Shown here: piece after piece, positions 1 to 34,240 of the stretch
How positions within the stretch are numbered: the first letter of the stretch is position 1
Layout of the letters: each line of letters begins with the position of its first letter
NCBI RefSeq assembly: GCF_008041935.1
Contig: NZ_VKAC01000001.1
Span: 620,001 to 684,000 of the forward strand
Direction: 5' to 3'
Length of the DNA: 64,000 nucleotides
From: Quadrisphaera setariae
Lineage (GTDB): Bacteria > Actinomycetota > Actinomycetes > Actinomycetales > Quadrisphaeraceae
Program-made: the position numbers and the translations under genes
Notes under the pieces: generated by a model
The model's database searches: none
What the model was told of the DNA's origin: nothing
Seen by the model: only the letters and a program-made list of their open reading frames with translations

Positions 1-444
1 GCGCTCGGGGCGGCCGCCGGGCTGCGGGTGTGGGTGACGAGCCGCTCGGAGGAGCGCCGCGCCCGCGCGCTCGAGCTGGGCGCGCACGCGGCCTTCGCGC
101 CGGGGGAGCGGCTGCCCGAGCGCGTCGACGCGGTGCTCGAGAGCGTGGGCAGGGCCACGTGGGCCCACTCGCTGCGCTCCCTCAAGCCCGGCGGGACCGT
201 GGTGGTGTGCGGCGCGACCACGGGTGACGCCCCCGCCGAGCTCAACCGGGTGTTCTTCACGCAGCTGCGCGTGGTCGGCTCGACGATGGGCAGCCGCGAC
301 GAGCTGCGCCGCCTGGCGCAGCTGTGCGCCGCCACGGGGGTGCGCCCCCTCGTCGACGACGTGCTGCCGCTGGCGGAGACCGCCGAGGGACTGCGCCGGC
401 TGGAGGCCGGCGAGGTCTTCGGCAAGCTCGTCATCCGCCCCTGA
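1..444 (+). CDS. Zinc-type alcohol dehydrogenase/quinone oxidoreductase, C-terminal part (cut by window edge)
   Basis: The reading frame is open from base 1 and ends at TGA 442-444, so the 5' part lies outside the window. What remains is about 147 residues of the nucleotide-binding half and C-terminal tail of a medium-chain dehydrogenase/reductase. It shows the segment after the Rossmann glycines (WVTSRSEERRARALELGAHA), the typical SLKPGGTVVVCGATTG strand, and the C-terminal PLAETAEGLRRLEAGEVFGK pattern in which the cofactor domain packs back on the catalytic domain. These enzymes use NAD(P)H to reduce quinones or enones, or oxidise alcohols. The catalytic domain with any zinc ligands is not visible, so substrate and exact subfamily cannot be given. 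It converges on the GDSL-like gene, with a palindrome array between them. Confidence 0.85.
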   Translation, partial: ALGAAAGLRVWVTSRSEERRARALELGAHAAFAPGERLPERVDAVLESVGRATWAHSLRSLKPGGTVVVCGATTGDAPAELNRVFFTQLRVVGSTMGSRDELRRLAQLCAATGVRPLVDDVLPLAETAEGLRRLEAGEVFGKLVIRP

Positions 445-458
445 CCCGACCCCCTCCT

Positions 459-603
459 CGCACTTGCCGCGGAAAGTGCGAGACGGGAGGCGTGGGAGCC
501 GCACTTGCCGCGGAAAGTGCGGCTCCGAGGAGGCGGGTGGCGCACTTGCCGCGGAAAGTGCGGCTCCGAGGAGGCGGGTGGCGCACTTGCCGCGGAAAGT
601 GCG
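459..603. repeat. Array of four 22-bp palindromes at exact 41-bp period
   Basis: Four copies of a near-palindrome, core CACTTGCCGCGGAAAGTG with CG on each side, lie at 459-480, 500-521, 541-562 and 582-603. Start-to-start distance is 41 bp each time. The 19-bp spacers after copies 2 and 3 are identical, while the spacer after copy 1 differs. Each palindrome is broken only at core positions 6 and 13 (G/A where T/A or G/C would be needed). The array fills the gap between two convergent genes, where hairpins could end transcription from both sides. A two-copy version with the same period occurs at 27977-28039. Confidence 0.9.
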
Positions 604-613
604 GGCAGAGGTG

Positions 614-1219
614 TCAAGGGGTGAGGGGCAGGCCCAGCCAGGCGTGCCAGCCGCCGTGCAGCACCAGCCACGCCAGCAGGCCGTAGCCCACCTGGCCGGG
701 GTGCACGCCGTCACCCGCCTCGAGGTCGGCGATCCACTGGTCGTGGGACAGCAGCGGGCTGAAGCAGTCGACGTAGGGCACGCCGCGCCGGCTGGACACG
801 TCGGCCCAGCCGCCCGCCAGCTCGGACACCGCCGCACGCAGCGACGGGTCGAGCGGCGGCGGCGGACCCACCACGAACGCCGGCACGTCGGCGGCAGCAG
901 CGGTGTCGAGCACGTCGGCGAGGTTCAGCCGGCTGCGGGCCAGCGACGACCCGGCCGCCGCGTCGGCGTGGCCCAGAGCCACCACCAGGCGGTCGTCGGC
1001 ACCGCCCCAGCGGCGAGCCGCCTCGGGGTACCAGCGCTCGCGCAGGGCCGAGGTCGACTCGCCGGGCACGCCCAGCGCCATGACGGTGGCGGCGACCGCG
1101 TCGTGCTCGGTGCGGGTGCGGGCGGCGACCCGCCCGACCCACCCGAGCGCGCGCGGGTCGCCCACCCCGGCGACGAGGTCGTCACCGACCACGCAGACCC
1201 GCGTGGCCGGTGCCCTCAC
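614..1219 (-). CDS. GDSL/SGNH-like hydrolase fold protein lacking the usual nucleophile serine
   Basis: A 201-residue protein starting at GTG. It has the first SGNH block near residue 12 and the last block near residue 172, DGVHPGQVGYG, which carries the D-x-x-H of the catalytic triad/dyad. SGNH enzymes are esterases, lipases or acyl-hydrolases acting on ester or acetyl groups. In block I the family motif GDSL reads GDDL here: the serine nucleophile is replaced by Asp. The protein may therefore be non-hydrolytic, or use another residue. There is no signal peptide, so it is probably cytosolic. It begins 34 bp after the kgd stop on the same strand and is probably cotranscribed with kgd. The substrate is unknown. 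Confidence 0.7.
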   Translation of the reverse strand: MRAPATRVCVVGDDLVAGVGDPRALGWVGRVAARTRTEHDAVAATVMALGVPGESTSALRERWYPEAARRWGGADDRLVVALGHADAAAGSSLARSRLNLADVLDTAAAADVPAFVVGPPPPLDPSLRAAVSELAGGWADVSSRRGVPYVDCFSPLLSHDQWIADLEAGDGVHPGQVGYGLLAWLVLHGGWHAWLGLPLTP

Positions 1220-27111: not shown

Positions 27112-27930
27112 GTGAGGCTGACGGTCATCGGGTGCTCGGGGTCGGTGCCGGGGCCGGACTCCCCGGCGTCCTGCTACCTGCTGGAGGCCGAGGACCCCGC
27201 CGACCCGGCGGGCAGGACCTGGCGGGTGGTGCTCGACCTGGGCAGCGGCGCGTCAGGGCCGCTGCAGCGGCACCTGCCCGGTGGTGACCTCACGGCGCTG
27301 GACGGCGTGCTGCTCTCCCACCTGCACGCCGACCACTGCCTCGACGCCTGCTCGCTGTACGTGGCGATCAAGTACGGTCCCGCCGCCCACCGCGGCGAGC
27401 CGCGCGCGCCGATGCCGCTGTGGGCGCCCGCCGGCGCCGCGGGACGGCTGGCGCGGGCCTACGACCTCCCCGACGACGGCCCGGGCATGACCGAGCAGTA
27501 CGCCTTCGGCACCTGGGCGGACCGCGTGCCGGTGCAGGTGGGGCCGTTCACGGTCGAGCCGGTTCTGGTCGAGCACCCGGTGGAGGCCTACGGCCTGCGG
27601 GTGACCGGCCCGGCGGAGGCCGGCGGTGGTGCCACCGCGGTGCTGGCCTACACCGGCGACACCGACGACTGCCCCGGCCTCGACCACCTCGCCGAGGGAG
27701 TGGACCTGCTGCTCGTCGAGGCCAGCTTCACCGACGACCTGCCCTTCGAGCGGGGGATCCACCTGTCGGGCGCCCGCGCCGGCGACGTCGCCGCCCGCGC
27801 GGGGGCCCGTGCGGTGCTGGCGACGCACCTGACGCCCTGGGCCGACCCCGACGCGGTGCTGGCGGAGGTCCGCTCGCGCTTCGACGGCCCCGCCGACCTC
27901 GCTCGTCCCGGCGCCACCCACCACCTCTGA
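27112..27930 (+). CDS. Metallo-beta-lactamase-fold hydrolase, probable cyclic-nucleotide phosphodiesterase (Rv1339-like)
   Basis: 272 residues. The MBL metal site reads SHLHADHCLDACS (HxHxDH), with later ligands in LAYTGDTDDCPGL and a final His in HLTPW. The N-terminal strand MRLTVIGCSGSVPGPDSPAS is typical of the RNase Z-like/cAMP phosphodiesterase branch. By position after murI it matches mycobacterial Rv1339, reported to hydrolyse cAMP; I infer the same here. A strong AAGGAGG (27099-27105) lies 6 nt before GTG 27112, and the gap to murI is 13 bp. A pair of palindromes lies downstream. Confidence 0.85.
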   Translation: MRLTVIGCSGSVPGPDSPASCYLLEAEDPADPAGRTWRVVLDLGSGASGPLQRHLPGGDLTALDGVLLSHLHADHCLDACSLYVAIKYGPAAHRGEPRAPMPLWAPAGAAGRLARAYDLPDDGPGMTEQYAFGTWADRVPVQVGPFTVEPVLVEHPVEAYGLRVTGPAEAGGGATAVLAYTGDTDDCPGLDHLAEGVDLLLVEASFTDDLPFERGIHLSGARAGDVAARAGARAVLATHLTPWADPDAVLAEVRSRFDGPADLARPGATHHL

Positions 27931-27976: not shown

Positions 27977-28039
27977 CGCACTTGCCGCGGAAGGTGCGGT
28001 TCCGGGCCCCTCCTTCTAGCACTTGCCGCGGAAAGTGCG
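27977..28039. repeat. Two-copy version of the 41-bp-period palindrome array
   Basis: Copies at 27977-27998 and 28018-28039 match the 22-bp element of 459-603; the first differs by one base (AAGGTG for AAAGTG) and the second has changed end bases. Spacing is again exactly 41 bp. The outer ends TCTCGCAC and GTGCGAGA are complementary, so the pair could also fold into one hairpin of about 17 bp with one mismatch. It lies between the MBL gene and rph, upstream of the rph promoter, and may act as terminator. Confidence 0.85.
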
Positions 28040-28110: not shown

Positions 28111-28838
<728 letters not shown>

Positions 28839-28842
<4 letters not shown>

Positions 28843-32772: not shown

Positions 32773-34176
32773 GTGCTGGACGCCCCCGGGCCGCTCCCGC
32801 GGGACATGCTGCGCGACCTGCTGGGCATCCGCCGCGACCCGCTGGGGTACCTGCGCAGCGCCGTCGAGCGCTGGGGCGACCACGTCGCCTTCCCCCTGCC
32901 GACCACCCCGGTGCTGTTCGTCAACACGGTCGCGGGAGCCCGCCGCGTGCTCGTGGAGAACGCCGGCGGCTGGACCAAGCAGACCGTCCAGTACGGGGCG
33001 CTCTCACTGGTCACCGGCAGCGGGCTGCTCACCAGCGACGGCAGCGCCTGGCGCGAGGCGCGCCGCGTGGCGCAGCCGGCGTTCCACCGGTCCGGGCTCG
33101 CCGCCGTCGCCGAGCAGTCCGTCGCGGCCGCCGAGCGGCTGCGCGCCCGCTGGGACGCGGGCGCGGCTGCGGCCGGGGACGGGCCGGGTGGAGCCGGTGG
33201 GGGCGTCGTCGACGTCGACGCCGCCGCCCTGCAGGCGACGCTGGAGGTGGTCGGCCGCACGCTCTTCGGCGGTGACGTCACCGCGGAGGGCGTGGACGAC
33301 GGCGAGCGCGTGGTCGCCGCCGTCCTGGAGGCCCTCGGCGTGGTGGTGTCCCGGGCCCGCACCCCGGTGCCGGGCTGGCTGCCCACACCGTCGCGGCGCC
33401 GGCTGCGGCGCGCGAACCGGGTGATGGACGAGGTGGTGGAGCGCGTGGTCGCGCGGCGCCGCGCGACGGGGGAGCTCGGTGACGACCTGCTCGGCCTGCT
33501 GCTGGCCGCCGTCGACGAGGGCCGCCTGCCGCCCGAGGCGGTCCGCGGCGAGCTGGTGACCATGGTGATCGCCGGTCACGAGACGGTCGCCTCGTGCCTC
33601 ACCTGGACGCTGCACCTGCTCGCGCAGCACCCCGAGGCCCAGCAGCGGCTGCACGCCGAGCTCGACCGGGTCCTCGGCGTCCCCGGGAACCCCGGCGGCC
33701 CCTCGGCCCCTGCTCCGCGCAGGGCTCCCACCTGGGAGGACCTGCGCGAGCTGCCGTGGACGCGGGCCGTGGTGGACGAGTCGCTGCGCCTGTACCCGCC
33801 GGCCTGGGTGGTGACGCGCCGCTCGGAGGCCGAGGACGTGGTCGACGGTGTGGCCGTGCCGGCCGGGACGCTGGTGATCGTCAGCCCGTGGCTGCTGCAG
33901 CGCCGGGCTGACGCGCACCCCGACCCGGAGCGCTTCGACCCGGGCCGCTTCACCGGCGAGGGCCCGGAGGTGCCGCGCGGCGCCTACCTGCCCTTCGGCG
34001 CCGGGGCGAGGCTGTGCATCGGGCGCGACTTCGCCCTCACCGAGGCGGTCCTCGTGCTCGCGGCGCTGCTGCGCGACCGCGCGGTGCGGCCGGTGCCGGG
34101 ACGTGAGCCGGTGCTGGAGGCCCTGGTGACGCTGCGGGCCCGGGACGGGCTGGAGCTGAGGCTCGAGCCCCGCTGA
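32773..34176 (+). CDS. Cytochrome P450
   Basis: 467 residues from GTG 32773. The haem-binding loop is PFGAGARLCIGRDFALTEAV with Cys about 415. The I-helix oxygen-binding segment is VIAGHETVASC, the K-helix ExxR is DESLRLYPPAWVVTRRSE, and the region resembles the CYP102/CYP4-like bacterial monooxygenases. The substrate is unknown; the electron donor is not encoded nearby. The frame is open upstream to the GroES-like gene but has no other usual start. The stop codon lies within the first unit of a 10-bp tandem repeat that follows. Confidence 0.9.
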   Translation: MLDAPGPLPRDMLRDLLGIRRDPLGYLRSAVERWGDHVAFPLPTTPVLFVNTVAGARRVLVENAGGWTKQTVQYGALSLVTGSGLLTSDGSAWREARRVAQPAFHRSGLAAVAEQSVAAAERLRARWDAGAAAAGDGPGGAGGGVVDVDAAALQATLEVVGRTLFGGDVTAEGVDDGERVVAAVLEALGVVVSRARTPVPGWLPTPSRRRLRRANRVMDEVVERVVARRRATGELGDDLLGLLLAAVDEGRLPPEAVRGELVTMVIAGHETVASCLTWTLHLLAQHPEAQQRLHAELDRVLGVPGNPGGPSAPAPRRAPTWEDLRELPWTRAVVDESLRLYPPAWVVTRRSEAEDVVDGVAVPAGTLVIVSPWLLQRRADAHPDPERFDPGRFTGEGPEVPRGAYLPFGAGARLCIGRDFALTEAVLVLAALLRDRAVRPVPGREPVLEALVTLRARDGLELRLEPR

Positions 34177-34240
34177 GCCCCGCTGAGCCCCGCTGAGCCC
34201 CGCTGAGCCCCGCTGAGCCCCGCTGAGCCCCGCTGAGCCC
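34165..34240. repeat. 10-bp tandem repeat (GAGCCCCGCT, about 7.6 units) over the P450 stop codon
   Basis: Seven perfect GAGCCCCGCT units run from 34165 to 34234, then a partial unit GAGCCC. The first unit encodes the last residues Glu-Pro-Arg and its final T starts the TGA stop (34174-34176). The copy number is likely to vary. It is followed by a GC hairpin at 34247-34262. Confidence 0.9.

Follow-up and report, generated by a model that had tools for sequence, protein, structure and literature searches.

What are the short, evenly spaced palindromes that stand between genes in this stretch of DNA, and how did they come to be there? The window analyzed here is a 64-kb stretch (positions 620001-684000 of contig C1) of a 4.91-Mb genome, G000. 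An earlier note had described in it a 22-bp near-palindrome, present in four copies at 459-603 and in two at 27977-28039 with an exact period of 41 bp, and all of these copies were located. Together with the neighboring genes, whose identities were read by eye from their translations, they are:

1..444, plus strand: left neighbor of array 1, zinc-dehydrogenase-like, with its stop codon 14 bp ahead of the array
459..480, plus strand: array 1, copy 1, CGCACTTGCCGCGGAAAGTGCG, of the G..A type
500..521, plus strand: array 1, copy 2, its flanks forming a perfect stem extension (ggagc/gctcc)
541..562, plus strand: array 1, copy 3
582..603, plus strand: array 1, copy 4, preceded by a spacer identical to that preceding copy 3
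614..1219, minus strand: right neighbor of array 1, SGNH-hydrolase-like and convergent, with its stop codon 10 bp past the array
27145..27930, plus strand: left neighbor of array 2, of the metallo-beta-lactamase fold
27977..27998, plus strand: array 2, copy 1, with one mismatch (A to G)
28018..28039, plus strand: array 2, copy 2, with a ccttct/agaagg stem extension on its flanks
28111..28842, plus strand: right neighbor of array 2, RNase PH, co-directional

In our view these arrays derive from a REP-like selfish element with a Vsr-like nuclease as its partner and are solo, non-autonomous copies of it; we put the probability of this reading at roughly 65%. They are termed solo because a profile search of G000 gave no match to the nuclease domain PF18741 inside the window.

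Within the window, the 18-bp core of the palindrome has 12 matches at up to three mismatches (six sites, each on both strands), compared with 0.02 expected, and none of 100 shuffled windows held 12. When the six copies are folded as single-stranded DNA, three have z-scores below -3.2 and the others lie at -1.9, -0.4, and 0.0. In an Rfam scan of the window, three tRNAs alone reach the gathering score, and the arrays have no match. The window also contains a perfect tandem repeat at 34165-34240, with 7.6 copies of the 10-bp unit GAGCCCCGCT, where a crude gene call ends.

The genome-wide excess of the core that the earlier note had anticipated is evident: 76 sites in G000 lie within one mismatch of CACTTKCCGCGGMAAGTG. 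At up to two mismatches there are 74 forward and 60 reverse matches, the near-palindromic core being counted on both strands, and the reversed pattern has none. The same core (core A) occurs within one mismatch in two congeneric genomes, strain NP160 (G001, 44 sites) and Quadrisphaera granulorum DSM 44889 (G002, 102 sites), as well as in G004 (3 sites); it is absent at this threshold from G003, G005, and 53 other relatives, and is thus present in 4 of 59 genomes. The exact core was not found in viral contigs. The records of strain NP160 (NZ_VDMJ01; L047 and others) are labelled Streptomyces, and the genome belongs to the genus of the window.

The copies are arranged on a tight ruler. In the 37 stretches of G000 fetched around matches, which are complete to one mismatch only, the copies form 39 arrays, with no lone copy: 27 arrays of two copies, ten of three, and two of four, one of which consists of two joined pairs. 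Neighboring copies in these arrays are 41 bp (30 cases), 42 bp (21), or 40 bp (1) apart, in addition to the single 134-bp join of two pairs. Pooling the three species, in which the arrays of G001 and G002 derive from an exact-match scan and those without an exact core are therefore under-represented, the distances are 41 bp (69), 42 bp (40), and 40 bp (1), i.e., 41 or 42 bp in 109 of 110 neighboring pairs with the 134-bp join set apart. Second neighbors are mostly 82-84 bp apart, as seen in 16 of the 18 longer distances. The period proposed from the window alone is therefore sharply peaked across the genome, although it is 41 or 42 bp rather than a constant 41 bp. With 10.4-10.5 bp to a turn of B-DNA, four turns span 41.6-42 bp. 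The spacing thus fits the suggested four helical turns, which would place successive cores on one face of the DNA.

The core also carries a direction. Two off-symmetry bases (G.A, or T.C on the other strand), which had appeared to be kept from copy to copy, are indeed kept in 83 of 92 copies in G000 and 81 of 87 in G002, but copies in NP160 are mostly symmetric (24 of 33). The cores are accordingly species-specific even at orthologous sites, being G..A or T..C in G000 and G002 and mostly symmetric in NP160. When this asymmetry is read as an arrow, the arrays of G000 and G002 follow the order TC...TC GA...GA, and a GA copy followed directly by a TC copy occurs 0 times, compared with 19.3 expected (0 of 20000 shuffles were as low). 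One exceptional array of core A runs GA-TA-TC, reaching TC by way of a symmetric copy.

In 12 orthologous array pairs, mean identity is 93% for cores, 65% for spacers, and 61% for the outer 20 bases, and the spacing is 41 or 42 bp in all. On the notion of an amplifying unit of about 41 bp the spacers are divided: likeness between neighboring spacers of an array exceeds that between spacers of different arrays in G001 (0.64 vs. 0.45; 4 pairs) and G002 (0.58 vs. 0.43; 4 pairs), and two spacers of array 1 are identical, but in G000 as a whole there is no difference (0.41 vs. 0.41; 14 pairs).

With respect to genes, the arrays had been said to sit only between them, and this holds for 37 of the 39 arrays in G000, one of the remaining two being inside a crude gene call and the other at a contig edge. 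A bias to the 3' ends of genes is likewise present, as arrays are nearly always found downstream of genes. With gene context assigned by a simple gene caller of our own, the 37 classified arrays of G000 comprise 24 convergent, 12 co-directional, and 1 divergent, compared with 8, 39, and 8 among the 55 gene gaps of the window. The corresponding numbers are 7, 6, and 1 in G001 and 20, 21, and 1 in G002, where the convergent class merely equals the co-directional class, though its excess over background is clear. Many arrays are 13-20 bp from stop codons. In addition, stems continue beyond the core: extensions of at least four pairs occur in 45 of 216 flank pairs (a count that inner copies of longer arrays enter twice), compared with 9.2 expected. 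Flanks that face each other across a spacer form such stems in 0 of 108 cases (6.0 expected). Covariation of the flanks base by base is weak, and the signal resides in whole stems.

Both the convergent placement and the extended stems would be expected if the arrays were bidirectional terminators or 3'-UTR hairpins of the host, with a shared core under selection and no selfish spread. We regard this explanation as improbable. An intrinsic terminator consists of a hairpin followed by a T-run, whereas the T-run is absent at arrays 1 and 2, where an intrinsic-terminator scan returned 0 terminator-like sites. A terminator requires neither the fixed spacing of 41/42 bp nor a conserved palindromic center, the arrow of an array is independent of gene direction, and some orthologous convergent gene pairs are without any array. 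Two observations on relatives of these arrays, presented below, also count against it: the 3' bias of another palindrome family (family E) is weaker (6 convergent, 12 co-directional, and 3 divergent), and the partnership with a nuclease would be left unexplained.

Comparison between species shows that arrays are gained and lost at orthologous sites, as the earlier note had proposed to examine. Many arrays of G000 have a counterpart at the orthologous position in G001 or G002. For ten array sites, the orthologous regions of other Quadrisphaera genomes, three to five per site, were compared; these ten were chosen for having no known orthologous array, so that variability among them is over-stated. 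At one site (L125), two stop codons that are 2-9 bases apart in G001, G003, G004, and G005 enclose a clean 129-bp array in G000. G004 is empty at the 27977 site and has a single degenerate copy at the 459 site, where G003 and G005 lack an array. Core A does occur at the orthologous places of L121 (G002 and G004), L135 (G004), L151 (G001), and L136 (G001, with one degenerate copy in G002), and at several sites a different palindrome family occupies the same place in another species. Four aligned pairs of occupied and empty sites revealed neither a target-site duplication nor a fixed boundary of insertion. The dispersal of the arrays, their 3'-end bias, and their presence or absence between species agree with the initial view of a REP/MITE-like intergenic unit distributed genome-wide.

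In G002, three genes in a 3.4-kb block, bordered on either side by palindromes, interrupt the 27977 site. More generally, G002 has ordinary-looking gene blocks beside or between palindromes (L063:2122-5630 and L062:3194-6242) where the sites in G000 hold one intact array; by eye, the translated genes in these blocks include a histidine kinase, a response regulator, and a third gene, and an amidohydrolase and another gene.

Other species, and two sister genera, have the 41/42-bp ruler as well, with differing cores. All six Quadrisphaera genomes carry family B (core CCGCARCCRRGCGCYYGGYTGCGG), with 24, 26, 23, 126, 11, and 66 copies in G000 to G005, respectively, and none of 23 other genomes does. 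Neighbors of this family in the fetched stretches are 42 bp apart in 23 of 24 pairs and 41 bp in one, with the order '-+' in 0 of 24; among the matches listed genome-wide, counted by eye, 21 distances are 42 bp, one is 41 bp, and one is 30 bp. Family C (core GGCACTC...GAGTGCC) has the 41/42-bp spacing as well, and family D (G011) has spacings of 41 and 42 bp and their multiples. Family E (core GGGCGACATGGCCACACGTCGCCC), from a sister genus, has 109 copies in G009, 53 in G012, 3 in G006, 1 in G011, and 0 in G008 at up to three mismatches, in arrays of up to eight copies. Its 77 neighbor distances are 41 bp (30), 42 bp (29), 39-40 bp (11), or other values (7), which places 59 at 41/42 bp and 70 at 39-42 bp. 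Polarity in this family is again fixed, '-' preceding '+' (43 pairs ++, 19 --, 15 -+, and 0 +-). Families A, C, and D may be akin, given the common GCACT...AGTGC that is visible by eye in their sequences, and on the same inspection families B and E bear no apparent relation to these three. In nine 20-kb stretches (180 kb) from order-level relatives, no pair at 41/42 bp with a likeness of 18/22 or better was found, and unrelated hairpin pairs show no general excess at 41/42 bp, the ruler being restricted to related copies.

Palindromes resembling the core were also seen in distant genomes. The perfect 20-mer GCACTTTCCGCGGAAAGTGC has eight matches in an unrelated Oligoflexales MAG, CANFEB (L068, L081, L087, L103, L107, L108, and L117). 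At L108 it directly follows an HNH gene (PF01844, E = 1.3e-4; DUF222, E = 0.0085), and at L117 it follows a gene with a C-terminus similar to that of the L108 gene. This MAG was considered as an array carrier and rejected, as the seven loci with the palindrome contain no 41/42-bp arrays. In Clostridia MAGs (L091, L092, L099, and L113), GCACTTGCCGCGGCAAGTGC lies between an A-run and a T-run, in the manner of an intrinsic terminator, and its likeness to the core is probably accidental.

The arrays have a protein partner. Homologous genes enclosed by arrays are found in G009, G000, and G001, and Pfam ties them to PF18741, a Vsr-fold nuclease domain. In G000, the gene associated with core A is:

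C1:271363-272250 (L123:3164-4051): core-A nuclease gene, flanked by arrays

A profile search for PF18741 in ten related genomes, blind to arrays, gave 59 matches, of which 53 were inspected and six were not fetched. Thirteen loci were initially flagged as having 41/42-bp arrays; the flag of L307 was judged spurious, and L312 and L329 were recognized later as carrying 41-bp arrays. In a tree of 49 proteins (excluding two without a gene call, the long multi-domain L286, and one protein shorter than 150 aa), the 12 genes first flagged all fall inside one clade of 14 with support of 100/99. The array label changes twice on this tree, compared with 11.0 times when shuffled (0 of 500 shuffles were as low).

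We then assessed flanking repeats at 52 loci (L286 being excluded) by a palindrome-blind procedure with one rule for gene ends, based on the reading frame of the PF18741 match. Direct repeats of 17/22 or better, 40-42 bp apart, are present beside 14 of 14 clade genes and 4 of 38 others (Fisher, 1.7e-9), and on both sides of the gene in 10 of 14 and 0 of 38, respectively. The best offset is 41 or 42 bp in each of the 14. An earlier variant, with gene starts corrected for the clade alone, gave 14/14 vs. 3/36 (Fisher, 7e-10). The left and right flanks resemble each other in inverted order in 14 of 14 clade loci, yet also in 27 of 36 others, and this feature is no specialty of the clade. Measured from the chosen start codon, the closest upstream array copy is 83-152 bp away in 13 of 14 loci (25 bp at L297); on the other side of the gene, the first copy follows the stop codon after 5-124 bp. 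Symmetric copies aside, a '(-) array, gene, (+) array' layout is clean in six of 14 loci and nearly so in one; L313 and L333 deviate, and the remaining loci, too palindromic or too mixed, could not be assigned.

Nucleases and arrays are partnered core by core. Core A lies beside the nucleases at L109, L123, and L333; core B beside L313; core C beside L304, L310, and L316; core D beside L297; core E beside L287 and L288; GGACTTCGTAGCCTTCTTCC beside L312 and L329; and two further cores of G008 beside L289 and L306. In each genome with two clade nucleases (G000, G001, G008, G009, and G012), a different core lies beside each. Copy number tends to follow the nuclease: core A has 76, 44, and 102 copies in genomes with an A-type nuclease (G000, G001, and G002) and 0, 3, and 0 where none was detected (G003, G004, and G005), an absence that is not firm given that A-type nucleases score 6e-5 to 4.5e-4 relative to a limit of 1e-3. 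Core E similarly has 109 and 53 copies with a nuclease (G009 and G012) and 1 and 0 where none was detected (G011 and G008). Family B breaks this rule, with 126 copies in G003 (91% complete), which has no clade nuclease among its five PF18741 matches, and with 24, 26, 23, and 11 copies in G000, G001, G002, and G004, where no B-type nuclease is among the inspected loci. No relative of the A-type nuclease of NP160 was found on plasmids.

Repeats of other kinds were observed beside other PF18741 genes. A second clade (L302, L305, L307, L325, L327, L334, and L335) has flanking repeats of the CGCGACGATCACGCACCTGCGCGCCAC or ATGATCACGG type, their order reversed between the left and right flanks, with a best offset of 30-33 bp in five of seven loci (52 bp at L327 and 69 bp at L307); repeats like these also occur solo at L195, L191, and L202. 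In a third clade (L303 and L319), flanking repeats of GAGTCCGACGTC are, by eye, about 20 bp apart and in both orientations.

An alignment of the 14 clade proteins (312 columns) has E194, D226, E237, and H269 among its invariant residues. The structure model (pLDDT 90.7, pTM 0.87) has as its top Foldseek match Rv2827c of Mycobacterium tuberculosis (1zel; E = 0.0023, TM 0.38), and it also matches the catalytic domain of the homing endonuclease I-Bth0305I (3r3p; E = 0.05, TM 0.81 by target); no match reaches E = 0.001. By profile search, 3r3p is matched over residues 229-283 (E = 0.021) and Vsr (1cw0) at E = 0.69. The Vsr family model TIGR00632 matches five of 14 clade proteins (best E = 3.5e-4), and weak profile matches include two AbiEi models and one homing-endonuclease model (one of 14 each), PDC-S37 (four of 14), and a restriction model (three of 14). 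The modeled C-terminal domain resembles a homing endonuclease and appears to be a nuclease of the Vsr/EDxHD type. The N-terminal part is a probable winged helix, by likeness to Rv2827c and AbiEi.

These observations point to a previously undescribed relative of bacterial REP elements, in which the nuclease may aid the spread of the arrays. The element would consist of near-palindromes in a row, set every 41-42 bp (close to four helical turns) and presenting their cores on one DNA face, and its autonomous form would be a single nuclease gene flanked by arrays, with the Vsr/EDxHD domain C-terminal to the probable winged helix. The N-terminal part could bind the palindromes along that face, and the nuclease domain could nick or cut at the palindromes or at their hairpin form; the single mismatch in the hairpin of core A recalls the taste of Vsr for mismatches. 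Repair or replication might then copy an array into a new intergenic site in a homing-like manner; the partnership with the nuclease is established by comparing genomes, and this mode of spread is inferred from it. Such copying between sites would homogenize the cores of a species and leave its spacers free to drift.

The nuclease could instead be a defense or restriction gene, with the arrays serving as self-marks or operators that it reads and their dispersal having some other cause. The weak matches to restriction, defense, and AbiEi models would suit such a role, as would the array copy 83-152 bp upstream of the start codon in nearly all clade loci, a plausible place for an operator. We nevertheless judge it unlikely, since arrays also lie downstream of the gene, tens of solo copies are far from it, and the variable occupancy of orthologous sites is suggestive of spread. 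Least probable, and largely refuted, is the notion that these are classical REP/BIME sequences moved by RAYT (an IS200-type tyrosine transposase): their size, intergenic 3' placement, species-specific families, and dimers do agree with the REPs of PMC3733652, but the REP-associated transposase looked for on the earlier note's suggestion is missing (PF01797 has 0 matches in G000, which is 99.95% complete, while the same search was positive in 5 of 14 control genomes), base counts by position over 211 copies reveal no fixed tetranucleotide, GTAG and CGTC included, adjoining the core, and the associated enzyme, a Vsr-like nuclease, is of a different kind.

If the nuclease-partnered selfish element is the correct reading, it bears on other repeats. 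REP-like repeats without RAYT, of which the CGTC-tagged REPs of PMC3733652 are one example, have no known driver. A nuclease paired with its palindromes core by core is a concrete and testable candidate, and a four-turn ruler common to differing cores suggests a shared DNA-binding geometry. Tentatively, and at somewhat less than even odds, actinobacterial Vsr/DUF559-type nucleases could drive a broad, unrecognized class of selfish elements, with one ruler and one repeat per clade (41-42 bp for the palindromes, 30-33 bp for the ATGATCACGG type, and about 20 bp for GAGTCCGACGTC, the latter types next to two other clades); solo copies of these would account for many of the orphan repeats between genes in these genomes. 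Many DUF559/PF18741 genes of unknown function would then be parts of selfish repeat systems. A literature search found no description of these arrays or of a pairing between a nuclease and palindromes.

Among known systems, CRISPR shares regular palindromic repeats with unlike spacers, and differs in that the arrays here have 2-4 copies (up to eight in family E) and spacers of 19-20 bp, and lie at tens of scattered loci. The Vsr mismatch endonuclease belongs to the same fold superfamily, although the similarity is weak, and the hairpin form of core A contains one mismatch. I-Bth0305I and other EDxHD homing endonucleases share the fold of the catalytic domain (3r3p) and, as proposed, spread by cut and repair; unlike them, the system described here has no intron, has palindrome arrays as its proposed targets, and includes an extra N-terminal part. 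A further comparison is with REP/BIME/REPIN sequences and RAYT. Here a Vsr-like nuclease replaces the Y1 tyrosine transposase, the GTAG/CGTC tag is unseen, and spacing is fixed at 41/42 bp with a non-alternating polarity; with RAYT and the tag both tested and neither found, the element acts like a REP/RAYT system but is not a member of that group. The REPs of PMC3733652 are comparable in size to the elements here, lie between genes at 3' ends, no more than about 20 bp from either convergent gene, and form species-specific families and dimers. The two systems have in common short palindromes dispersed between genes, with a preference for downstream and convergent positions, families specific to a species, inverted pairs, and a gene for the cognate enzyme with its own repeats beside it (here in 14 of 14 loci, and on both sides in 10).
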